Of a stretch of 64,000 nt of DNA, positions 19,853-63,104 are shown one piece after another. This DNA is from Bolinopsis microptera (Eukaryota > Ctenophora > Tentaculata > Lobata > Bolinopsidae). Within the stretch, counting starts at the first letter, position 1; the number at the start of each line of letters is the position of its first letter. A model generated the notes under the pieces. It worked only from the letters and a program-made list of their open reading frames with translations. It made no database searches and had not been told where the DNA came from. Made by a program: the position numbers and the translations under genes. Location: positions 20,054,837 through 20,118,836 of the forward strand of contig NC_087073.1 in NCBI RefSeq assembly GCF_026151205.1, in the 5' to 3' direction.

Positions 19853-22800
19853 TTAAGCACACTATTAGACAGAAGAAAAGACAGACAAGATATAAGTTAC
19901 CAGACTGAACCCTTGGGTGTTATAAAAACAAAACAAGATAAAGTAGACGTTACCTGGCTGAACTCTATAGGAGGAAGGTCTGGTCCATTGAGCACACCTG
20001 ATGTCAGAACATCTGAAAATACCATTGTTATCATTGTAATAGGAGATTAAATTGTAGATTAAACAAACTAATTTAAAATTAATTGAGATAAGTTTAATTC
20101 CACTTCGATTCAGCCAAGATTCGTAAAATACTTAACATAACATTGTCCAACAAATCCACGCCAATGTAAAGCAGCTATATCGGGGGCATTCATACCATGT
20201 TGTTTACAAAACACGTTAGTGACCAAGCTGCTACTCATTCCACAGCAGCGGTTTAACTTTAACAAACCCATGTTAGGAAAACTTAGGATCAGCAAAATAA
20301 CGGCTATTCAAGCTAACACAAAGTTGATCAACTACCACGCAATAATTAATGAGTAAAACAGTGTTCACAAAGTAACGACTAAGTTTAACGAGTAACAACA
20401 GTAACATACAACGTTAACAGGGTGTGTAACAGCTAAATTTACTAACAGTAACCCCACCACACATAGCGACCACATCTTAGTGAGGGTCACACAATGATAG
20501 CCTCTCCCAGGTAGTGAATTATACGGGGAACGGGGGCTCTGTGTCACATGTCACGTGTTATAGGTTCTACATGTCACGTGACATTTGGGACCCTTTAACA
20601 TGTCACGGGTTGTCAGGACCTACTAATAACACAGTATCTGTTGGGGGCCGTGGCTACTAGCCGTGTGGGGCGGTGGTGTACAATGTTTGTGTATATTTAT
20701 AATATAATAACCACACAGCTACAATTACGTGAGGAGTACCTGATGATGATGCGTGGTGCTGGTTTTACGTGAGTATAAAACATGTATATTAACTACACGT
20801 ACGTGTAGCATGCTGTGTGTTTAAATCTTTACAGTACGTTCGCGTTAGATTGACTTGTCATATTGTATTTTTACGGTGCCACATACACGCTTAACATTTA
20901 TTACAAGAACTTATATTATTAGTTATGTTATTAGTGAGCAACAACTATCCCAGGGATGAACAATAAAATTCACAGAGAGGACTGTATTACACAACTTGGC
21001 ACTAAGGTTTAGTGCGATGACACTTCACGCGCTATAACTTCTTAAACAGCACTCACTTCAACCCACTTTACAAAACACCATATAGCTACAAATATGTCAC
21101 AAATATGTCATATTACAACCACTCTACAGCTCTGTGAGTACGCCATTTACTGGTGTAGTGACCACTGTAGTGACCACTGTAGTGACCACTGTAGTGACCA
21201 CTGTAGTGACCACTGTAGTGACCACTGTAGTGACCACTGTAGTGACCACTGTAGTGACCACTGTAGTGACCACTGTAGTGACCACTGTAGTGACCACTGT
21301 AGTGACCACTGTAGTGACCACTGTAGTGACCACTGTAGTGACCACTGTAGTGACCACTGTAGTGACCACTGTAGTGACCACTGTAGTGACCACTGTAGTT
21401 ACCACTGTAGTGACCACTGTAGTGACCACTGTAGTGACCACTGTAGTGACCACTGTAGTGACCACTGTAGTGACCACTGTAGTGACCACTGTACATGTAG
21501 TGATCACTGTAGTGACCACTGTAGTGACCACTGTAGTGACCACTGTAGTGACCACAACACTGTAGTGACCACCGTTGTGACCACTGGCACATTGGTCACT
21601 TTGCAGTTTACACACTATCAGTCTCACACAGCTCTCAAATCATCTTACTGTTGTCTTTCCATATCTTGATCCTACTCATCCAGGCCACTGTCCAGGCAAC
21701 TGTCCACCACTTGAGGAACTCTAAATCGTTTTGTAGCAGAGGGTGTATGTGAGACAGGGGCAAGAGTACTGGCAGTGAGCAAAAGCAAACAAATCTCATC
21801 GGGGTAGTAATACAAATTAGGAAAATGGAAAGTTTGAATGTTGTCAAATCTGGGGTTTTATTGTTTCTAGATAATACTTTTTAGACTAATCGATTTTTTT
21901 ATGAATGAAATGATAATTTATTTGTCGCCAACGACGATATTCCTGCAGATGAAGGCAAACTGGCGGTTAAGTTCAAATTGGGTATACTTTTGTGCTGTGA
22001 ATAAATGACTAACTTATTAATAACGGTAGCACTTTCAATCTAAATTCATATAAAATGTCAATTCTTATAAGATGCAATTTTCTATTTCAGGAGAGTGTTT
22101 TTAGCAAGTCACCTTGTACTGCACGTGGCCAGGTAATAGCATAAACATGTGGAGGTGGCGAAAGATAGGTGGCAGCGATTAAGCAATCACAGTTTGGACA
22201 AATCACACCCAAGTATCGCTGTCACTTGTCAAAACAACCCCACCTCCCTATCATGACGCCTATTTCGTGACTTTAAAAACTGTTTTAACTCTGACGTTTC
22301 ATGTTAATGACCTTAATTTGAAGTCCAATTGTCTCCATCGTCCTTCAATAGTCAATACTTGCAAACAATTTGGAAAAAATAAAAGGTCGGTAGTTCTATT
22401 GAATATCAAGAAATGCTTTGGCCTATTTGAATGTGCTTCATAGTTTCACTTATTGTATAAATGTGTTCTAGGATTGCATATACAATATAATAAACTCGAT
22501 GAGAAATAAAGGAAGAAGTTTGAAAAAGATCAAGGTAAGAAAAGAAAAATAAGCAAAACTCACCTGTTAAAGAACCGAGCGAAGCAGTGCTGACTGATCT
22601 TCCGTGCTCCATTAGTACCCACTGTCTTTCTGCGTCACCTAACAGGGTAAGATGTAATGTTAGTACCCACTGTCTTTCTGCGTCACCTAACAGGGTAAGA
22701 TGTAATGTTAGTACCCACTGTCTTTCTGCATCACCTAACAGGGTAAGATGTAATGTTAGTACCCACTGCCTTTCTGCGTCACCTAACAGGGTAAGTGTTC

Positions 22801-26040: not shown

Positions 26041-26814
26041 CACATTCGTAACGTGTCGTATGCCGACTAGGATATTTTGTGACGTCACCAGAGCTCAAGT
26101 GACTTGATCAGGCCTTATATGGAATAATATAGTGTTTCGCATGTAATTGGACCCAATTAGAGCAGCTGAGCGCTCAATTATAGCAGCATCTGGTACCACC
26201 TTCTGAAACCCAGCAGACAGCTGGCTCAGAGAATCAAAAATAGAAGGATTTTTTATGGATGAAAATCGAAGGGAAAACCTTGTAACCCTACGTTTTCGAT
26301 GACGCTGAACAAGATTAAACCGGTTATAATTATCATACTATCGTGTAAATTGCTTTAAAACGTAATTGAAATTTGAATGATGCTATCAATTGTAATACAA
26401 TTTGTACAAAAAGCTGAGCGGCTTAACCGCTGGCATTCCTTGGCCGCGCTCATCCCAGCTTGTCATTCCGCCTCAGCTTCACTGTTTGTGAATATTACAG
26501 CCTGGGGTCCCCAGGTAACCGGTAACGGCTGGCATCGCTATCTCTGTATAATCGAAGTTTTTGTAAATACTTACGACTAGGTTAACGCTCCTGTTATGAG
26601 AATGTTCCCCTTCCGTTGTACATTACTTAGGATCGTTAAACTGTGTTTTTTTGGATAGACCATTGAGCCATTAGCCATAATATGTTCATTATATGCAAGC
26701 CTCTTGATTTATAACAGAACTTATGATTGTCCGTTCTATTTTGTGTACAATTTTGTGTAAAGCTATCTCATTACCTTCTGCCTCAAGTTTAAAGTTAACC
26801 TTACATTTTACTTG

Positions 26815-27880
26815 GCATCTGTAGTTAACATTACCTTGTGTCTTACATCTAGAGTAACATTAGGTTGTGTCTTACATCTGTAGTTAACATTACCTTGTGT
26901 CTTACATCTTGAGTTAACATTAGGTTGTGTCTTACATTTGTGGTTAACATTAGGTTGTGTCTTACATCTGGAGTTACCATTACCTTGTGTCTTACATCTG
27001 AAGTTAACATTACGTTGTGTCTTACATCTGTAGTTAACATTACCCTGTGTCTTACATCTAGAGTTAACATTATGTTGTGTCTTATATCTGGAGTTAACAT
27101 TACCCTGTGTCTTACATCTAGAGTTAACATTAGGTTGTGTCTTACATTTGTGGTTGACATTAGGTTGTGTCTTACATCTGGAGTTACCATTACCTCGTGT
27201 CTTACATCTGAAGTTAACATTACGTTGTGTCTTACATCTGTAGTTAACATTACCCTGTGTCTTACATCCGGAGTTAACATTAGCTTGTTTTTTACATCTG
27301 ACCAGTTAACATTAGGTTGTGTCTTACATCTGTAGTTAACATTACCCTGTGTCTTACATCTAGAGTTAACATTATGTTGTGTCTTATATCTGGAGTTAAC
27401 ATTACCCTGTGTCTTACATCTAGAGTTAACATTAGGTTGTGTCTTACATTTGTGGTTAACATTAGGTTGTGTCTTACATCTGGAGTTACCATTACCTCGT
27501 GTCTTACATCTGAAGTTAACATTACGTTGTGTCTTACATCTGTAGTTAACATTACCCTGTGTCTTACATCTAGAGTTAACATTAGGTTGTGTCTTACATT
27601 TGTAGTAAACATTAGGTTGTGTCTTACATCTGACCAGTTACCATTACCTCGTGTCTTACATCTAGAGTTAACATTAGCTTGTTTTTTACATCTGACCAGT
27701 TAACATTAGGTTGTGTCTTTCATGTGGAGTTAAGATTACCTTGTGTCTTACATCTGGAGTTAACATTAGCTTGTGTCTTACATCTGGAGTTAATATTACC
27801 TTGTGTCTTACATCTAGAGGTAACATTATGTTATAATACCGTACATGCGGAGTTAACGTTACATTAAACCTTACATCTAA
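26815..27880. repeat. 30-bp minisatellite, left arm
   Basis: Around 35 units of a 30-bp motif (CTTACATCTGTAGTTAACAT plus ten bases) with internal variants forming a higher-order pattern; for instance 26900-27290 is echoed at 27315-27610. All ORFs here (repeating MLTPDVRH or CLTSVVNIT) are artefacts of the 30-bp period. Confidence 0.95.
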
Positions 27881-28299
27881 AGTTAACATTATGCTGTACC
27901 CTACCATGATGTACCTTACATTCCTTATTCCGGTTTATTCGACATTCATTATATGAACTTTGCCTGATACAACAATGTAGTTTGCATGAAATATAACTTG
28001 TTTAAAATTCCAACTCTGGGAATGTAACTGGATTATCAGCGAGTTACAACCAGCCTAGCTGTTCCTCAACTCCTGACGATAGCGACCCCATTCAGTGGGT
28101 TCACCTAACTAAATATATGCTGTACGGTATTTGGAAAGAAAGTAGAACGTATGATAGCTTTTCATATATTTGCCAAATACTGAAGTCTTAATCACAATAT
28201 TTTTCGTAATATTATGGACACTGTTCATTTGATTTTGAGGTTATTGGTAAATATAAGTGACCCTATTAAACTTAAAGGCACAATATATCATTGTAATAC

Positions 28300-28735
28300 T
28301 AAACCTAATGTTTACTACAAATGTAAGACACAACCTAATGTTAACTCTAGATGTAAGACACAGGGTAATGTTAACTACAGATGTAAGACACAACCTAATG
28401 TTAACTCTAGATGTAAGACACAGGGTAATGTTAACTACAGATGTAAGACACAACCTAATGTTAACTGGTCAGATGTACTGTAAGACACAACCTAATGTTA
28501 ACTCTAGATGTAAGACACAGGGTAATTTTAACTACAAATGTAAGACACAACCTAATGTTAACTCTAGATGTAAGACACAGGGTAATTTTAACTACAGATG
28601 TAAGACACAACGTAATGTTAACTCCAGATGTAAGACACAAGGTAATGTTAACTACAGATGTAAGACACAACCTAATGTTAACTCTAGATGTAAGACACAA
28701 GGTAATGTTAACTACAGATGCCAAGTAAAATGTAA
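28300..28735. repeat. 30-bp minisatellite, right arm (inverse orientation)
   Basis: About 15 units of the same 30-bp motif in reverse complement. It is shorter than the left-arm array by some 20 units, so copy number has changed since the arms formed. Confidence 0.95.
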
Positions 28736-29639
28736 GGTTAACTTTAAACTTGAGGCAGAAGGTAATGAGATAGCTTTACACAAAATTGTACACAAAATAG
28801 AACGGACAATCATAAGTTCTGTTATGGCTAATGGCTCAATGGTCTATCCAAAAAAACACAGTTTAACGATCCTAAGTAATGTACAACGGAAGGGGAACAT
28901 TCTCATAACAGGAGCGTTAACCTAGTCGTAAGTATTTACAAAAACTTCGATTATACAGAGATAGCGGTGCCAGCCGTTACCGGTTACCTGGGGACCCCAG
29001 GCTGTAATATTCACAAACAGTGAAGCTGAGGCGGAATGACAAGCTGGGATGAGCGCGGCCAAGGAATGCCAGCGGTTAAGCCGCTCAGCTTATTGTACAA
29101 ATTGTATTACAATTGATAGCATCATTCAAATTTCAATTACGTTTTAAAGCAATTTACACGATAGTATGATAATTATAACCGGTTTAATCTTGTTCAGCGT
29201 CATCGAAAACGTAGGGTTACAAGGTTTTCCCTTCGATTTTCATCCATAAAAAATCCTTCTATTTTTGATTCTCTGAGCCAGCTGTCTGCTGGGTTTCAGA
29301 AGGTGGTACCAGATGCTGCTATAATTGAGCGCTCAGCTGCTCTAATTGGGTCCAATTACACGCGAAACACTATATTATTCCATATAAGGCCTGATCAAGT
29401 CACTTGAGCTCTGGTGACGTCACAAAATATCCTAGTCGGCATACGACACGTTACGAATGTGATCACGTGCTCGAGGATTTACGAATCAAGGTCACGTGAT
29501 AGGACCGACTGTCACGTGACCTCAGTTATCCCTTATATGGCACAATGAGCTGCAATTGATCAGCTCTTAATTGGGCTGCAATCCTTGACAGGCCTATAAT
29601 TACCCAATTTTAAATGAACGATATCTCATCCTACAGAAT

Positions 29640-52481: not shown

Positions 52482-53411
52482 AGCTAAGTAAAGTAAAGTA
52501 AAGTAAAAATTATGACATAACATCATCACTAATGTCTACAAAGTATCATCACACTACATGGGAAAATAACTATTTCTCCATCAAATTTAAAGGTAACAAT
52601 TTATCAAATATTAATCATGAATAAAAACAACATTACAAAATTTAATTTATTCATACTTCCCAGTGGAGTAAAGATTTATAAAACGTTTCTTTGCTACATA
52701 AGGATGGAACCACAGATAATCATTGTGTTTTTCCTTATTACTGATATAACTGGTACCTTCAATTCTTGTTAAAACTTCTTTCGAAACATTCCAAAAATGA
52801 AAGTCATTTACAATACATTTAGAAATCATATTCTTTTTAAAACTTTCCAATCAAATTTTAAAACTCAAAACTGTCAAGCAGTTCTTCACCTCCGAAGGGA
52901 GTTTGTTCCAATAAGGAACAACCCGCTCTGGAAGAAAAGAACACTGAAGATTCTTGACCTTTGTCACACTCTTACTACATCTATTGGATGAAACCAGATT
53001 AAGACCTGATCTGCTTGGTCTGAACAAGTCTGAACCATAATCAGTCAAGCCATTAATAACCTTAAAAGCTTCAATAAGGTCCCCACGTATTTGCCGCTCT
53101 GCCAGCGTTGTCAAATTAAGGATTTCCAGTCTACGGCTGTAAGGAAGAGTACCCACCTCATCAATCAGACGGGTAAACCGCCTCTGGACGCTCTCCAGCT
53201 CCAAAACAGTCCCCCAACTTCCATGAGCCGCAACTGGATTCCACAATTGGACACAATACTCTAGATGAGGTCTTATCAAAGCTTTATAGATGGCTATCAT
53301 TACACATTTTTCTCTAATTATCAAATTCCTTACAATCCAGCAAATCATACGATTTGCCTTGGAAATACATGCTTTTATCTGTTCATTCCAAAGCAGCTGT
53401 CTGGTTACAAG
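52482..53411 (-). pseudogene. 3' part of a second non-LTR retrotransposon (RT C-terminus)
   Basis: Reads LLWNEQIKACISKANRMICW, IYKALIRPHLEYCVQLWNP and VPYWNKLPSEVKNCLTVLSF, the C-terminal part of a CR1/jockey-type reverse transcriptase, stopping at 52851. A 3' untranslated part and an AAGTA tandem tail (52482-52506) follow. The tail and about 190 bp inside it recur in direct orientation at 63607-63766. The catalytic FADD region is missing. The frame is open into the exon at 53412-53466. Confidence 0.8.
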
Positions 53412-53709
53412 TGTTAGATGGCCTCTAGTTGAACAATAAAACCCGTATTTGTCGTATGTACAAAACCTGTAAAACAAAATACTTTATTACATAATAGAAT
53501 AACTTTACCACCAAATTAAACCAATTCCAAATAAATACCTAATAACTAAACATTATAAATACTTACCGATTGGACGGTAGTGTGCTGCCAATGTTCCACT
53601 CCTCCCCAGTCCAATCGGTTATCCTCCTTTGCTTGTCATTGCTAGAAAAGGTAAACACGGTTAGAAGTATTCTGTCACGAAAGAGAGAGAAAAGTGTGAA
53701 CAGTAATAA
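53412..53709 (-). other. Duplicated exon pair, uninterrupted copy
   Basis: On the minus strand, exon 53567-53641 (acceptor TTACCTTTTCTAG, donor GTAAGT) and the exon starting 53466 (acceptor GTATTTTGTTTTACAG) are separated by a 100-bp intron. The joined peptide reads ITDWTGEEWNIGSTLPSNRF then CTYDKYGFYCSTRGHLT. I do not recognise the protein. 53412-53675 is matched at equal length by 56788-57051. Confidence 0.65.
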
Positions 53710-57051: not shown

Positions 57052-57369
57052 TTTTTACTAATTACAACACTACAAACTAATTACAACACTACAAATCTAT
57101 TACATTTATTGAGGACCCCCAGTGGGAACTAATGCCTCGGTAAATGTAACGACCATTACAGGTTGTATGTCAATGTAAATGGTTGTTGCACGATAAAGTT
57201 ATCTTAAAGACATCCTAAGGACTATCAGACATCGGTTTTTAAAGCAGTTTACTCCCATCTATCACCTAAAGATTATCAGACATCACTTATCCTTATCCTC
57301 CGGAGTGCTACAAAGGTACTGTAATCATTAACTAAATTTCGAACAGTAGCAACTTTTTTGTGATAAACT

Positions 57370-59022
57370 ATGTCTAGAATACCAGTTGGCTCAAGACATT
57401 ACAATCTGAGATATCGAGGGAATTCTGTTAAATTCCCCAGCAACGGCTCTTGTCCTACTGATAAATGTTCAAATTGTTTAACTCTATTAAGAGAGAATGA
57501 TAGTCTTCGTCGGCAAATTTCTTTTCTCTATAAACAATTATCAGAAAGTGACAGTGCACTCAAAGTTCCCCTCAGCGATGGTTCACTTATCCCTGTGTTG
57601 CCCCAGGTACCTGATCACTGTGAACAGTCTATCAATGTTCCCCTCAGTAATAGGTCATCCTCGCATCTTGTTTCTGAGTTAACCCAAGAGCTATCCAAAT
57701 TAGCAGAAGACAGTGAACATTCAGCAGAAATTATCAATTTGGAAAATCCCAAACACTCTGTAAATGGTGACAATGATGTGAGCAACTCTATCAATCCATA
57801 CCAAGATTTGAGTCGAGGAGTTTTTCAGTTTGTTGACACTGCCAAGTTAGATATAGAAACCCACTATACTCATAAGTTTGAGAATAGGGCAGTTGCATAT
57901 TACGGGGACTTTCCCTACGCTTACAATGGAGGCTTTCATAACACAAGGCCAGTAGCAGACAATCCATACCTAAAGTCTATTCTAGAACGCTTACGCTCAC
58001 AGTTCCCAAAATTGAAATTTAATAGTGCTATGATTACCAAGTATAGAAATGGTCAGCAAGGAATTCCCTTTCACTCGGATGACGAGAGGTCAATTTCACC
58101 AGGCTCCATGATCTCCACCATCTCTTTAGGGGCTACTAGAGTCCTAAGCTTCAGATCCAAACTTAGAGCTCATATTGCTGACCTCACCCTCTCCCATGGT
58201 GACATAATGAATATGACCAGACAATCCCAGACCAGCTTTGAACACAGCCTCATCCAGGACAAGTCTGAAACCATGAGAATAAGCATTACTCTGCGCCTAA
58301 TTGATGGCAGCGCAACCTTATCTACTCTGTCTGATGTTTCCAGTCAAGTTAAGAACACTGAACCCTCGGCCCCTAAGACTAGATCAATAGAACATTCTGG
58401 TAAATCTTTGTGTGTCTACATTAGCTCTAGTATGTTCTCCAAATTAGAGGGAGAAAAGCTATCGTCCAAACATCATGAGGCACATGTATTCAGCTACCCT
58501 GGTGCCACAGCCAATGCAATCAATGAACGGTTTCAATCAGATGTAAGAAAAGACACTCTTAATACCAATAATGTGAAAAGCATTGTACTTATGTGTGGTA
58601 CAAATGACGTGGACTCTATCCTGAACAGCCCTCGCAACATGAGGACTAAACTTCTGTGCCCTGATAGTTTTTCTGGTGATGCTAGAGCTCTTGACTTTAC
58701 AAACAATTGTATTGAAAAACTTGTACTTTTCCTTCACAAGTGGGCACCTGGAGCTGATATTAAAATTGTTAACTTATTACCTCGGGAGAGTTTCTCCAGA
58801 AACAAGGTTATAACTGATATCAATGAGTGTATATCAAATCTGCAAAGAAAATACACCTATGTAAAACTGCTCTCAACCGAGACAAATCGTTTCTTGTTTA
58901 GTGATAAGAAAGGCTTTAGAAAATCGTCATTTTTTAGTAGTTATGGAGAGGATAATGTCCATCTCAATGATTATGGCATAGTTAAATTAGCAAGGCACTT
59001 GAAGTATCATGCACACCATTAG
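57370..59022 (+). CDS. LINE ORF1: AlkB-like 2OG-Fe(II) oxygenase domain plus SGNH-hydrolase-like domain
   Basis: 550 residues. N-terminus: a small Cys cluster (C28, C33, C36) and a short coiled-coil-like stretch (38-60). Residues about 150-311 look like an AlkB-type 2-oxoglutarate/Fe(II) dioxygenase: ITKYRNGQQGIPFHSDDE gives the HxD iron ligands (H235, D237), FEHSL the distal His (H292), and TMRISITLRL the Arg residues (R303, R309) that bind 2-oxoglutarate. AlkB proteins remove alkyl groups from nucleic acids. Residues about 345-550 resemble an SGNH/GDSL esterase as found in CR1-type ORF1 proteins: block III GTND (410-413) and block V DNVHL (D528, H531) are present; the block I serine motif is less clear (ISSSM, 351-355). 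Role in the element (RNA binding, protection of template RNA, membrane or lipid interaction) is inferred only. Confidence 0.85.
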   Translation: MSRIPVGSRHYNLRYRGNSVKFPSNGSCPTDKCSNCLTLLRENDSLRRQISFLYKQLSESDSALKVPLSDGSLIPVLPQVPDHCEQSINVPLSNRSSSHLVSELTQELSKLAEDSEHSAEIINLENPKHSVNGDNDVSNSINPYQDLSRGVFQFVDTAKLDIETHYTHKFENRAVAYYGDFPYAYNGGFHNTRPVADNPYLKSILERLRSQFPKLKFNSAMITKYRNGQQGIPFHSDDERSISPGSMISTISLGATRVLSFRSKLRAHIADLTLSHGDIMNMTRQSQTSFEHSLIQDKSETMRISITLRLIDGSATLSTLSDVSSQVKNTEPSAPKTRSIEHSGKSLCVYISSSMFSKLEGEKLSSKHHEAHVFSYPGATANAINERFQSDVRKDTLNTNNVKSIVLMCGTNDVDSILNSPRNMRTKLLCPDSFSGDARALDFTNNCIEKLVLFLHKWAPGADIKIVNLLPRESFSRNKVITDINECISNLQRKYTYVKLLSTETNRFLFSDKKGFRKSSFFSSYGEDNVHLNDYGIVKLARHLKYHAHH

Positions 59023-59177
59023 AATACTGCTGAATACTGACATAACACTCCTACCATCAGTTTTATTTTTACAGTACGACATCCAGACAAATACAACCTG
59101 CTTTTATTCTGTTTTTTAGTTTAAACACAACTTTACAACTTTTATTCATTCCATTGTGAATTAATAAGATTCACAAG

Positions 59178-62153
59178 ATGACAAATTTTAATAATGCAGC
59201 TGATAGGTTTCACAACCTCTGCATTGGTCATTGTAACATTCAAGGAGGGCTTCTCAATTTAGCTAAAAGTAATGAACTTTCCCAACTTATTAGAGATCAT
59301 AAATTAGACATACTTTCCCTAAATGAGATGAATCTTAATGATACTATTGACACAGACACCATAAATATTCCTTCCTCCTTCAACCTTATGCGATGCGACA
59401 GGCCAAACAGTTCTAGGGGTGGTTGTGGTTTAATGATAAACAAAAAACTAGCTTACACAGAATTAGTTATGGATAGTAAGCTTGATAACATTGAAGCATT
59501 ATGGGTGAAGCTTAAGAATAGCAAGATCAATGTTTGCTGCTTCTATCGCTCTGGAAATTATTGCAGTGTTGATAACTTTATTGAATACATTCATTTTTGC
59601 ATGAAAAAATTGAATGGGAAAAAGGTTATCTGGATTGGGGATATAAACATTGACCAGAATAATATCTCATCCACCCAGTACAAAAAATTAGATATGACCT
59701 TGAGATGTTACAATCTAGTTCAAACCATTCAAGGGATAACTAGAGTTGCTAAACGTGGAGACAATGTTACCCAGACTACTATTGATGTAATATTCACTAA
59801 CTGTTATGCAGATTTTGTCCAATCTTCTGTTCTTGATGAACGTATTGGAGATCATCAAGCTATTATGTGTGAGATAGATTGTAAAGTACCTATAGCTCCT
59901 AAATTTGAGAAGGTTGAAATTAGAAATCATTGTAAACGTAATGTTAAACAATTCTTAGACTATCTAGACACCTGTTCTGATTACAGTCCACTATTGGAAA
60001 GTACAGATGTTGAAGCTATCACAGCTGGCCTTTGTCATCATATTGAACAGGCATATGCAACCTTCTTCCCTTGCAAGACCATAGAAAGGCATGAAAAGTT
60101 CATACATAAACCTTCTACTGAACTTTTATATGCCATTAATCATACACATTTTCTTCTAAAGAAATTCCGTAAAAAGAAGGATAAGAGAGACAATGGAAAT
60201 TGCAATAAATGTGGTACATGTAGCAAATGTATAAAGTGTAATGAGGCCTGGGATTGCTACAAGATTCAGAGAAATATTAGAAATAAATTAGCTAAAACCT
60301 GCAAAAAGGCTAATGTAATCGATGATCTACAAGTTAAAAGTGCCAAGAATGATCTTAAAGGGATATGGAAAACTATCAAACTGGCATCAAATATGACCCC
60401 TGGTACAACTAATTGTCAAACTATCAATGAGAATGATCCTGAGCTATTTAACTTTCATTTTGCAAATGTTGGATCAAGATTACAAAATCAGGCCCCCAAT
60501 ATTGAAAGAGTTAGTTTTACTGATTTTTTACCTCCTAGAACTTCTAATATCTCATTTGATAGATTCCAAGAAATAAATGAAACTGATATCCTAATGTATG
60601 TCGAAACGCTCAAGAATGACAAGGCCTCATATGACAATGTGCCTCTATTTTTACTTAAGCAAGCTGTACCACACATAGTTGAGCCACTGACCCACATTGT
60701 CAATCTGAGCCTTAATACAGGTGTTGTACCAACCCTTTGTAAAAAAGCTAGAGTAACTCCCATCCATAAGGCAGGAATGAAAGATGATCCTAATAATTAC
60801 AGGCCAATATCCATCCTTCCACTTGTAGGAAAACTTATAGAATACTTTGTCGGCAAGCAACTCACTGATTACATGGAAGAGAACAAACTTTTCATCCGGC
60901 ATCAATATGGCTTTCGGAAAAATCACTCCACAACTTATCTGATGTACGATCTGATGGACGAAATATATATGAGTAAATCTAAGTCTTATAAACCAGGAAT
61001 CATCTTTCTTGATCTTAAGAAGGCCTTTGACACAGTGAATCATGAAATATTGCTTCAAAAATTGGCATATTATGGAATTGGTGGCATTGCTTTAACCTGG
61101 TTTAAGAACTTCTTATCTTGTAGATATCAATGCACTAGGATCAATGGCAATCTAAGTTCATTTTTAGAAGTTCTGAGTGGTGTACCACAAGGAAGCATCA
61201 TTGGGCCTATATTATTTAGTATCTTCATAAATGACATCATTTATGCCTGTAACCTATCTAAGCCCTTTCTATTTGCAGACGATGGTGCACTATTCTTTGA
61301 TCAAACCTGCAGAAGCACATTTATAAACATGAAAATAGAACTTATGACAATCTTTAAATGGCTCAGTGTTAATAAATTATCACTCAATGAAAAGAAGACT
61401 GAATTCCTATTGTTTGATTCTGTTGACCAACATGATGAAATAACCATTGATTGTAATGAGGTAACTTTCACAATCAAGGAGTGCAAAGAGACAAAATATC
61501 TTGGCCTCATTCTAGATAGTAAATTAAACTTCAAAAGCCATGTAGATTATATTATTAGGAAGGTCATGAAGAGAATTGGTGCCATGTATAGAAGTAAAGC
61601 ACTGCTACCCATTAAATATAGGAAAATGTTTGCCAATGCACTCATGTTGCCACAATTCGATTATTTAGACACGATCTATTGTAGAGCTGGCAAGACAAAA
61701 CTTGCTGAACTTGACACTCTGTACAAAAAGGTAGCCAAAATAGCTCTCAACGTTCCAAAAACAGAGAGCAGCCTTAATGTTTATAGAGACATGAAATGGT
61801 TACCACTCCATCTTAGACGACAACTCCATCTGTCAAATTATATGTTTAGAATCATCCATGACAATTGTCCTACAAACTTTATGAACAAATTTAGTTACAT
61901 ATCAGGAGGTAGTAGGAGCGGCGAAAGCTGCAACCTTTATGTCAATAGATCAACATCACATAAAAACTTTCAATACTTGGGGGCAAAATGTTGGAATAAT
62001 GTTCCAACAGATCTACGAAATCTGCCCGATGTTAAAAGCTTTAGTGATTCGTATAAGAAACAGCTACTATCATCTATAACAACAGACCCTAATTATACCG
62101 TCGACAATTCATATGACAAATTTTACACTGCAATCATAGTCGCCGATAACTAA
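59178..62153 (+). CDS. LINE ORF2: APE-type endonuclease and reverse transcriptase
   Basis: 991 residues. Endonuclease/exonuclease/phosphatase domain at about 10-230: GHCNIQGG, ILSLNEMNL, WIGDINID and GDHQAIMCEI (catalytic His, in GDH instead of the usual SDH). A Cys cluster follows (about 340-360: CNKCGTCSKCIKC). The reverse transcriptase from about 500 has YRPISILPLVGKLIEY, YGFRKNHSTT, FLDLKKAFDTVNHEIL, SGVPQGSIIGP and the catalytic FADDGAL near residue 700. The C-terminus carries the LINE-type SHKNFQYLGAKCWNNVP block. It cuts the target and primes reverse transcription of the element's RNA. All catalytic motifs look intact. The order and motif style fit the CR1/L2/jockey group. Confidence 0.95.
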   Translation: MTNFNNAADRFHNLCIGHCNIQGGLLNLAKSNELSQLIRDHKLDILSLNEMNLNDTIDTDTINIPSSFNLMRCDRPNSSRGGCGLMINKKLAYTELVMDSKLDNIEALWVKLKNSKINVCCFYRSGNYCSVDNFIEYIHFCMKKLNGKKVIWIGDINIDQNNISSTQYKKLDMTLRCYNLVQTIQGITRVAKRGDNVTQTTIDVIFTNCYADFVQSSVLDERIGDHQAIMCEIDCKVPIAPKFEKVEIRNHCKRNVKQFLDYLDTCSDYSPLLESTDVEAITAGLCHHIEQAYATFFPCKTIERHEKFIHKPSTELLYAINHTHFLLKKFRKKKDKRDNGNCNKCGTCSKCIKCNEAWDCYKIQRNIRNKLAKTCKKANVIDDLQVKSAKNDLKGIWKTIKLASNMTPGTTNCQTINENDPELFNFHFANVGSRLQNQAPNIERVSFTDFLPPRTSNISFDRFQEINETDILMYVETLKNDKASYDNVPLFLLKQAVPHIVEPLTHIVNLSLNTGVVPTLCKKARVTPIHKAGMKDDPNNYRPISILPLVGKLIEYFVGKQLTDYMEENKLFIRHQYGFRKNHSTTYLMYDLMDEIYMSKSKSYKPGIIFLDLKKAFDTVNHEILLQKLAYYGIGGIALTWFKNFLSCRYQCTRINGNLSSFLEVLSGVPQGSIIGPILFSIFINDIIYACNLSKPFLFADDGALFFDQTCRSTFINMKIELMTIFKWLSVNKLSLNEKKTEFLLFDSVDQHDEITIDCNEVTFTIKECKETKYLGLILDSKLNFKSHVDYIIRKVMKRIGAMYRSKALLPIKYRKMFANALMLPQFDYLDTIYCRAGKTKLAELDTLYKKVAKIALNVPKTESSLNVYRDMKWLPLHLRRQLHLSNYMFRIIHDNCPTNFMNKFSYISGGSRSGESCNLYVNRSTSHKNFQYLGAKCWNNVPTDLRNLPDVKSFSDSYKKQLLSSITTDPNYTVDNSYDKFYTAIIVADN

Positions 62154-63104
62154 GTAACTTCTAATTCTTTTAAATCTGAGGCATATATAATTGATGTATC
62201 AAAAAGATATTCCCTTTTTTACCACCTTACCATTCTGATTGATTTTGCACATGACTGACATGTTTTAACTGGAGAAGGGGTTCCCACAGTGGTAGTTTTA
62301 TAAACCACTTTTAATTTATTGACCTATTATACTTAGTGGTAGTTTTATAGACCACATTTAATTTATTAACTTATCATACTTAGTATTTTTTTTGGTGACT
62401 GTATCACCCAGTTTTAACATTTGATAATTGTACAGTTTATTGACGACACATTGACTGAATGTTATTTTATATTCTAATTTATATTCTAGATATTTTATTT
62501 ATTTTACAACAGACGACAACTTCCTGTTTTTTCTTCTATATTAGTTACTCATATCTCTTGTACAGACTTTTTTACAAGGACATTGACAAATGATACTCAC
62601 ATTAGGCATTCATTATTGCATCTAAATTATTTCACTTGCATTAGGCTTAGAAATTTATTCTCTGGTCAACAGATTTCAAATGTTTAATTAATTTGTAGTA
62701 TGACAGTAAGGTATATAAGAAGTTATTTAATTTTGCTTGGGCTATTGTATTGACTAGGTATTGAGGTTTAATGATGATATGGAATTTGAATTCTATATAA
62801 ATTTACACTATGTGGTTGGGGCATTTTGCATAGTAAATATGGTTACTACTCATATATATCATATTATTTGATTGGTATTCGATTTCTGATTATTTCTCTA
62901 GGAATATGATTATTATATCTCAATTTGGCTTTAGGTAGGGTGCCCCGCTAAAAGAACTGGATTCTTCCAGGAAGCATCCCGTGCACAGAGCTTGGTCTAC
63001 ATATATATTAAATTATTAACCATTCATTCTGTATGTGCACGAAAATTTATTTCAATCAATTCTGTCACGAAAGAGAGAAAAGTGTGAACAGTAATAACAA
63101 CAAG

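Follow-up and report, generated by a model that had tools for sequence, protein, structure and literature searches.

The stretch of DNA analyzed here, hereafter the window, comprises 64,000 nucleotides from the ctenophore Bolinopsis microptera (NCBI RefSeq assembly GCF_026151205.1, contig NC_087073.1, positions 20,054,837 to 20,118,836 of the forward strand). It harbors a long interspersed nuclear element (LINE) whose first open reading frame (ORF1) fuses a predicted AlkB-type dioxygenase domain to a predicted SGNH hydrolase domain. Elsewhere in the genome, the AlkB-SGNH pair turns up again in LINE-like ORF1 proteins of several architectures and in Helitrons, and the AlkB domain is under strong purifying selection. 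All of the genomic results come from this one genome, searched as an assembly of 232 contigs that total 264.65 Mb.

The AlkB-SGNH fusion in ORF1

ORF1 and its parts are laid out in the window as follows:

57370..59022, + strand: ORF1, 550 residues; N-terminal region, AlkB domain, linker and SGNH hydrolase domain
57466..57549, + strand: possible coiled coil, residues 33-60, seen by eye; helix at 34-59 in a low-confidence model
57787..58305, + strand: AlkB-type 2-oxoglutarate- and Fe(II)-dependent (2OG-Fe(II)) dioxygenase domain, residues 140-312, from Pfam, PDB search and alignment
58072..58086, + strand: H235-x-D237-x-E239, invariant in 16 aligned AlkB domains; H235 and D237 presumably iron ligands, E239 presumably the conserved acid
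58243..58245, + strand: H292, invariant in the 16 domains; presumably the third iron ligand
58276..58296, + strand: R303-x5-R309, invariant in the 16 domains; taken to be the AlkB signature arginines
58396..59019, + strand: SGNH hydrolase domain, residues 343-550; weak PF13472 match, family profile that finds 4c1b
58429..58431, + strand: S354, aligned with the serine of GDS; invariant in a 12-domain alignment
58597..58608, + strand: GTND block with G410 and N412, both invariant in the 12 domains
58951..58962, + strand: D528-x-x-H531 block (DNVH); H531 invariant and D528 nearly so in the 12 domains

The AlkB family is defined by an HxD...H iron triad together with an R-x5-R pair. An earlier note on this DNA, made from the sequence alone, had predicted such a domain and proposed a profile match or fold as the check; ORF1 does match the Pfam profile PF13532, at residues 183-309, with an E value of 4.2e-19 and a score of 70 bits, well over the cut-off of 31.2. 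The five residues picked out at that time (H235, D237, H292, R303 and R309) lie where they were placed, and E239 can be added to them. Only 14 columns are invariant in the alignment of 16 AlkB domains (13 from transposons and 3 host-like, the near-copies L049, L051, L052, L053, L060 and L061 being omitted), and all six residues are among them. A phmmer search of the PDB returned 16 distinct sequences at E <= 1, every one of them an ALKBH2 or ALKBH3 (best matches ALKBH2 at 4.1e-13, then ALKBH3 at 2.5e-11), with no ALKBH5 or FTO chain at that threshold. In pairwise alignments, the glutamate after HxD is common to ALKBH2 and ALKBH3. By these resemblances the domain belongs to the AlkB family and is ALKBH2/3-like.

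A tblastn search with ORF1 against its own genome gave 82 matches. Family A consists of 23 full-length matches with 96-100% identity, the window copy included and one of them with a stop codon, while family B, which was analyzed by ORF1 only, consists of 16 near full-length matches with 65-67% identity to the window ORF1. The remainder comprised many fragments and four decayed copies with 42-50% identity. Thirty-four family A and B places were retrieved (L009-L042), of which the decayed L039 and L040 were dropped, having no ORF1 frame of 300 residues. The six AlkB residues are kept in all 32 other open ORF1 copies; loss of the iron ligands in the other copies, which the earlier note had considered, is not what is seen.

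For the C-terminal domain, PF13472 matches ORF1 with an E value of 1.7e-4 and 22.5 bits, under its cut-off of 32.9. A family profile was built from 12 SGNH domains of related ORFs, not from the window sequence alone, and it found 20 distinct PDB sequences at E <= 0.01, the best being 2hsj (1.2e-13), a putative platelet-activating-factor protein, and then 4c1b (6.1e-9). The latter is the esterase of the ORF1 protein (ORF1p) of ZfL2-1, a zebrafish LINE (PMC3905857). The SGNH blocks that had been noticed in the sequence hold up, S354, G410, N412 and H531 being invariant in the 12 domains and G378 nearly so. Across the copies, the SGNH residues agree in 30 or 31 of 32; where they do not, there is a short deletion, a truncated frame or, in one case, a broken copy. 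The profile identifies the domain, on sequence grounds, as a LINE-type SGNH esterase and, together with the PF13532 match, bears out the fusion. Both domains have their full set of catalytic residues.

Selection was gauged by comparing the family A copy in the window with the family B copy L029, each ORF1 region separately. For AlkB, the nonsynonymous divergence (dN) was 0.10 and the synonymous divergence (dS) 1.13, a ratio of 0.09, and two further family B copies gave ratios of 0.093 and 0.085. The SGNH domain had a dN of 0.23 and a dS of 4.5, near saturation; dN was 0.44 in the linker and 0.63 in the N-terminal part, where dS was saturated. Between the two families, no part of ORF1 is better conserved than AlkB, and this ratio and the six residues retained in every open copy support its selective maintenance. 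Among the family A copies, change is fastest in the N-terminal part, with ratios of 1.8 (L026) and 2.5 (L041) that derive from few changes. Whole-ORF ratios within family B, where the copies are nearly identical, range from 0.27 to 1.1.

Between families A and B, dS is lower in the AlkB region (57787-58305; ~1.1) than in the SGNH region (58396-59019; near saturation). Extra constraint on the nucleotides, or exchange between the families, is a possible cause of the low AlkB value.

The remaining parts of the element, all on the same strand, are these:

57053..63060, + strand: whole LINE copy, ~6.0 kb, from BLASTN against 20 other copies
57053..57369, + strand: 5' untranslated region, with short repeated units at its start and two alternative starts among copies
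59178..62153, + strand: ORF2, 991 residues; endonuclease/exonuclease/phosphatase (EEP) endonuclease at about residues 19-229, reverse transcriptase at 531-778
63047..63060, + strand: 3' end of the LINE, around TTTCAATCAA

These parts make up an APE-type LINE that is intact and was recently active: ORF2 holds both an EEP endonuclease and a reverse transcriptase (PF03372 at 3.6e-7, PF14529 at 7.1e-4 and PF00078 at 6.3e-36), and its dispersed copies share their 3' end. In the comparison with 20 other copies, the long ones share a block running from 57053-57109 to about 63055-63072, with different flanks on either side. Several other copies terminate in variable TCAA units, with no poly(A). The description of the LINE as young was correct, given the number of full-length copies with near identity, and both ORFs are full length in 12 of the 20 family A copies retrieved. 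Others are interrupted or end early (L014, L015, L017, L024, L025 and L027). Thirteen copies, the window copy and 12 more, were checked for target-site duplications, which gave a 10-base match in L021, 7 bases or none in the others, and so no convincing duplication.

The alternative 5' starts of the family A copies (L009-L028) lie in short repeated sequence, with joins at 57074 or 57109. Elsewhere in the window, a 210-residue open frame at 52851-53483 (-) resembles, by eye, the C-terminal reverse transcriptase fragment of another LINE, and repeat arrays at 21046-21669 and 26808-28925 contain long, artificial-looking open frames, some of them on both strands. Rfam (at gathering thresholds) and tRNA scans of the 64-kb window gave no match.

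Recurrence of the pair in LINEs and Helitrons

A profile search of the genome with PF13532 gave at least 151 matches, family A copies among them. (Such searches score the best candidates only, so that several of the counts are lower bounds.) Twenty places outside families A and B were sampled, of which three were host-like (L043-L045) and 17 belonged to transposons (L046-L062). AlkB was paired with SGNH in all 17 transposon places, and in 14 of them the two shared a single open frame. Pfam scans of 14 of these places found AlkB above cut-off in every one and a GDSL match at E <= 0.1 in 10, none of the 10 over cut-off. The SGNH part of L048, L059 and L062 was recognized solely by aligned S/G/N/H motifs, and by eye L051 resembles L048 and L060 resembles L057. 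In L053 the open frame ends just past the start of SGNH, L055 has a stop codon within the SGNH part, and in L061 the SGNH Pfam match lies ~1 kb upstream in a separate open frame. Four architectures were found:

N-terminal region-AlkB-SGNH: families A and B, L046, L057, L060, L056
PHD-AlkB-SGNH: L047, L052, L058, L059, L062
AlkB-long coil-like stretch-SGNH: L048, L050, L051
SGNH-AlkB: L049, L054, L055, L061

Behind ORF1, Pfam detects an endonuclease stretch in L046 (6.2e-7), L047 (4.8e-6), L052 (3.3e-6) and L048 (8.7e-7), and weakly in L050 (0.012). The endonuclease of the window is 53% identical to that of L046 and 25% identical over 163 residues to that of L047; BLASTP of the window endonuclease against the short stretches of L048 and L050 gave nothing significant. 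From their ORF1, L053, L056, L057, L060 and L062 are presumably LINEs as well.

PHD-like zinc fingers are seen in ORF1 of L047, L052, L058 and L059. The Pfam matches are weak: L059 alone is over the PF00628 cut-off, with 24.8 bits against 24, and L062 is hit by a related profile alone, at E 0.05. Similar fingers, again with weak matches, also start the second ORF of L047 (3-1367, -) and L052 (2-1207, -); the second ORF of L059 has a PHD-like start by eye, and that of L058 opens with a weak C1-like stretch (0.0043).

Among the PF13532 matches listed, six lie in giant open frames of more than 2000 residues, and both of the two retrieved carry Helitron_like_N (PF14214) in the AlkB-bearing frame (L054 at 3.4e-22, L055 at 1.7e-23). 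SGNH, AlkB and Helitron_like_N share one open frame in L054, the only place in which a helicase was seen, by eye. L049 and L061 resemble L054 in sequence. That two classes of transposons have the same enzyme pair, in different domain orders, suggests that AlkB and SGNH are functionally linked.

Does SGNH also occur by itself? A genome search with PF13472 gave at least 150 matches, mostly at places other than the AlkB matches; among the matches listed, 12 adjoin a PF13532 match on comparison by hand. The top PF13472 frames, of 400-530 residues, were considered as SGNH-only ORFs, a view that was rejected when four other such places (L143-L146) were retrieved and all four carried an AlkB-like stretch, leaving no proven SGNH-only case among these four. 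All are above the PF13472 cut-off, with 40.5-52.4 bits. L144 and L145 also match PF13532 (6e-17 and 4.3e-16), and L143 and L146 match only PF03171 (0.0046 and 0.026) in addition to showing the visible motif. The second ORFs of L143 and L145 have no Pfam match and resemble the endonuclease of the window over a short stretch only (0.013 and 7e-4, respectively). Viral contigs scanned with the AlkB-bearing stretches of the window and of L144 yielded no relative.

In all four of these places, hydrophobic stretches and an NPGP motif stand at the start of the ORF that follows AlkB-SGNH. We take the motif to resemble a 2A-like sequence, without the usual DxE. The ORFs that bear it are:

L143, 1420-2199, + strand
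L144, 1756-2301, + strand
L145, 2-841, - strand
L146, 1556-2101, + strand

Where did the transposon AlkB domains come from? Two of the host-like places match cellular proteins in the PDB, L043 an ALKBH2 (207 bits) and L044 an ALKBH3 (139 bits), and are taken as the host's own ALKBH2 and ALKBH3 genes. In a tree of 27 AlkB rows, 12 of the 14 transposon domains (9 labeled LINE and 3 Helitron) lie beyond a branch with support of 98/98, on the other side of which are the host-like, PDB and 8 bacterial AlkB domains. With three more domains, 15 of 17 are set apart at 99/100, in an analysis whose bootstrap had not settled. (Midpoint rooting was used for drawing only.) The Helitron domains lie among those labeled LINE, at forks that are open, which suggests that AlkB was exchanged between LINEs and Helitrons, in either direction. 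L048 and L050 fall with the cellular domains in both trees, on a long branch in the first, and the best PDB match of L048 is an ALKBH3. An independent second capture by this type, with its N-terminal AlkB, looked likely; the claim was dropped because a single origin was not rejected, the tree that holds all transposon AlkB domains together having a p value of 0.44 in the approximately unbiased test (p-AU). Apart from L044, L045 contains another ALKBH3-like open frame (555-1442, +; 296 residues), without a Pfam SGNH match, which both trees group with ALKBH3.

Possible roles of the AlkB domain

Why would a LINE carry an AlkB domain? ALKBH2 and ALKBH3 are repair enzymes for 1-methyladenine (m1A) and 3-methylcytosine (m3C), and LINEs and Helitrons both pass through single-stranded nucleic acid. 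We propose that the ORF1 AlkB may be an active demethylase that clears methyls such as m1A and m3C from the Watson-Crick face of the element's own single-stranded nucleic acid, a reading that we favor over each of its rivals, at about even odds. ORF1p would be multimerized by its possible N-terminal coil, bind the element RNA and clear lesions that stall reverse transcription, the methyls being either damage or enzymatic marks. The Helitron counterpart would act on single-stranded DNA, the intermediate of these elements. The esterase would tether ORF1p to membranes or lipids, much as the ORF1 esterase of zebrafish has been proposed to bind these (PMC3905857). The esterase ORF1 proteins in Repbase were reported to have no structural RNA-binding domain (Schneider et al., PMC3905857), and AlkB may supply the nucleic-acid-binding domain that they reportedly lack.

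According to a study of ordered two-template relay (OTTR), common reverse transcriptases are blocked by methyls that include m1A and m3C; the reverse transcriptase used there, which m1A impedes, comes from R2, itself a non-long-terminal-repeat (non-LTR) retrotransposon, and treatment with AlkB removed m1A and m3C and increased the capture of most 3' tRNA halves (PMC12140624). A LINE would therefore have an obvious use for an AlkB in the particle that carries its template.

Several points weigh against this proposal. In the same study, capture of intact tRNA was changed just modestly by AlkB, so that the benefit could be small (PMC12140624), and the RNA binding of esterase ORF1p has been proposed to rest on arginine-rich peptides rather than on a domain (PMC3905857). 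The m1A or m3C substrate is deduced from family resemblance, and the transposon AlkB domains other than those of family B have 23-39% identity to that of the window, so that specificity could differ. An AlphaFold model of full ORF1 from six close sequences had a mean predicted local distance difference test (pLDDT) score of 32.5, which is low confidence, and the AlkB-SGNH findings come from one genome.

Taken more broadly, AlkB and SGNH could form a dedicated module for copying single-stranded nucleic acid, found in many LINE lineages and exchanged with, or reassembled in, rolling-circle Helitrons, in which AlkB would act in cis on methyls that block polymerases. This wider claim is offered tentatively, and the chances are somewhat against it.

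The domain could instead be an epitranscriptomic eraser that strips a regulatory host mark, such as N6-methyladenosine (m6A), from element or host RNA and so evades surveillance, as has been suggested for the Ty3/gypsy elements of orchids (PMC9289625). The AlkB of an orchid gypsy element does demethylate m6A in vitro, and its H448A mutant is inactive yet binds RNA (PMC9289625); purifying selection on the catalytic residues fits an eraser equally well. However, the orchid domain is ALKBH5-like (PMC9289625), whereas all 16 PDB sequences found with ORF1 are ALKBH2 or ALKBH3, with which it also shares E239, and an RNA mark poorly explains AlkB in the DNA-based Helitrons. An eraser, the leading rival, is unlikely. 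The fusion and the intactness described in the earlier note stand, and selective maintenance is supported too; the note's idea that the enzyme counters host RNA methylation, taken as m6A, is less favored than template cleaning, because the PDB similarity is to ALKBH2 and ALKBH3, with no ALKBH5 or FTO chain at E <= 1.

That AlkB is mainly a nucleic-acid-binding or packaging domain of ORF1p, with catalysis incidental, seems quite unlikely. The reported lack of a structural RNA-binding domain in esterase-type ORF1 proteins (PMC3905857) would leave room for such a role, as would the position of AlkB between the N-terminal region and the esterase, but binding alone needs neither the iron ligands nor the two arginines, which are retained in 16 of 16 domains and 32 of 32 open copies. 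It is more doubtful still that AlkB acts on something other than the nucleic acid of the element, for example on a protein or on alkylated host DNA where the element inserts. The closest PDB match is ALKBH2, a repair enzyme for double-stranded DNA, and target-primed reverse transcription does open genomic DNA; the general view, however, is that ORF1p acts on element RNA. Transposons do capture host genes, but a passively captured AlkB with no function in the element is barely conceivable and was rejected because of the ratio of ~0.09 between families, and AlkB moreover recurs in several lineages and in most cases separates from the host-like ALKBH2/3 in trees.

Template cleaning by AlkB would mean that transposons run their own template repair. 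The findings suggest that LINEs and Helitrons can come equipped with an enzyme for editing the methylation of their own RNA or DNA, and they make the limitation of retrotransposition by base methylation testable. They also tie an esterase whose role in ORF1 was speculative (PMC3905857) to AlkB, and point to a domain that could handle nucleic acid in a class of ORF1 reported to have none.

Relation to known systems

The components have been published singly: AlkB in an LTR retrotransposon (PMC9289625), SGNH in LINE ORF1 (PMC3905857) and SGNH near Helitrons (PMC4021074). No description of AlkB in a LINE ORF1, of an AlkB-SGNH fusion or of AlkB in Helitrons was found in a search outside of which lay most subscription journals, bioRxiv and the Repbase reports.

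Esterase-type (type IV) ORF1 of CR1/L2 elements, such as ZfL2-1, likewise has a C-terminal SGNH domain with intact catalytic residues (PMC3905857, PMC4120745), and the words "AlkB" and "oxygenase" are absent from the main text of both papers. The ORF1 described here differs in having AlkB between the N terminus and the esterase, and in its relatives AlkB comes first or behind the esterase.

Plant RNA viruses of the Alpha- and Betaflexiviridae and the Closteroviridae are also selfish RNA-based replicators with an AlkB of their own (PMC9289625). Their replication machinery is unrelated to that of a LINE. To our knowledge, the viral AlkB has no SGNH partner. Cellular ALKBH2 and ALKBH3 have the same family profile, catalytic residues and HxDxE as the ORF1 AlkB but are stand-alone genes, as in the host-like L043 and L044.

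The orchid Ty3/gypsy element, too, is a retrotransposon with an AlkB-type demethylase, and there activity in vitro is known; it is an LTR element in which an ALKBH5-like domain acting on m6A occupies a separate ORF (PMC9289625). Here, by contrast, the domain is ALKBH2/3-like and lies fused to SGNH in a LINE ORF1. In fish, the Texim genes encode an SGNH hydrolase that is related to the CR1 esterases and travels with Helitrons (PMC4021074, a text in which the word "AlkB" is absent). Texim, however, is a separate gene beside the Helitron (PMC4021074), whereas in L054 the SGNH and AlkB domains are part of the Helitron_like_N frame itself.

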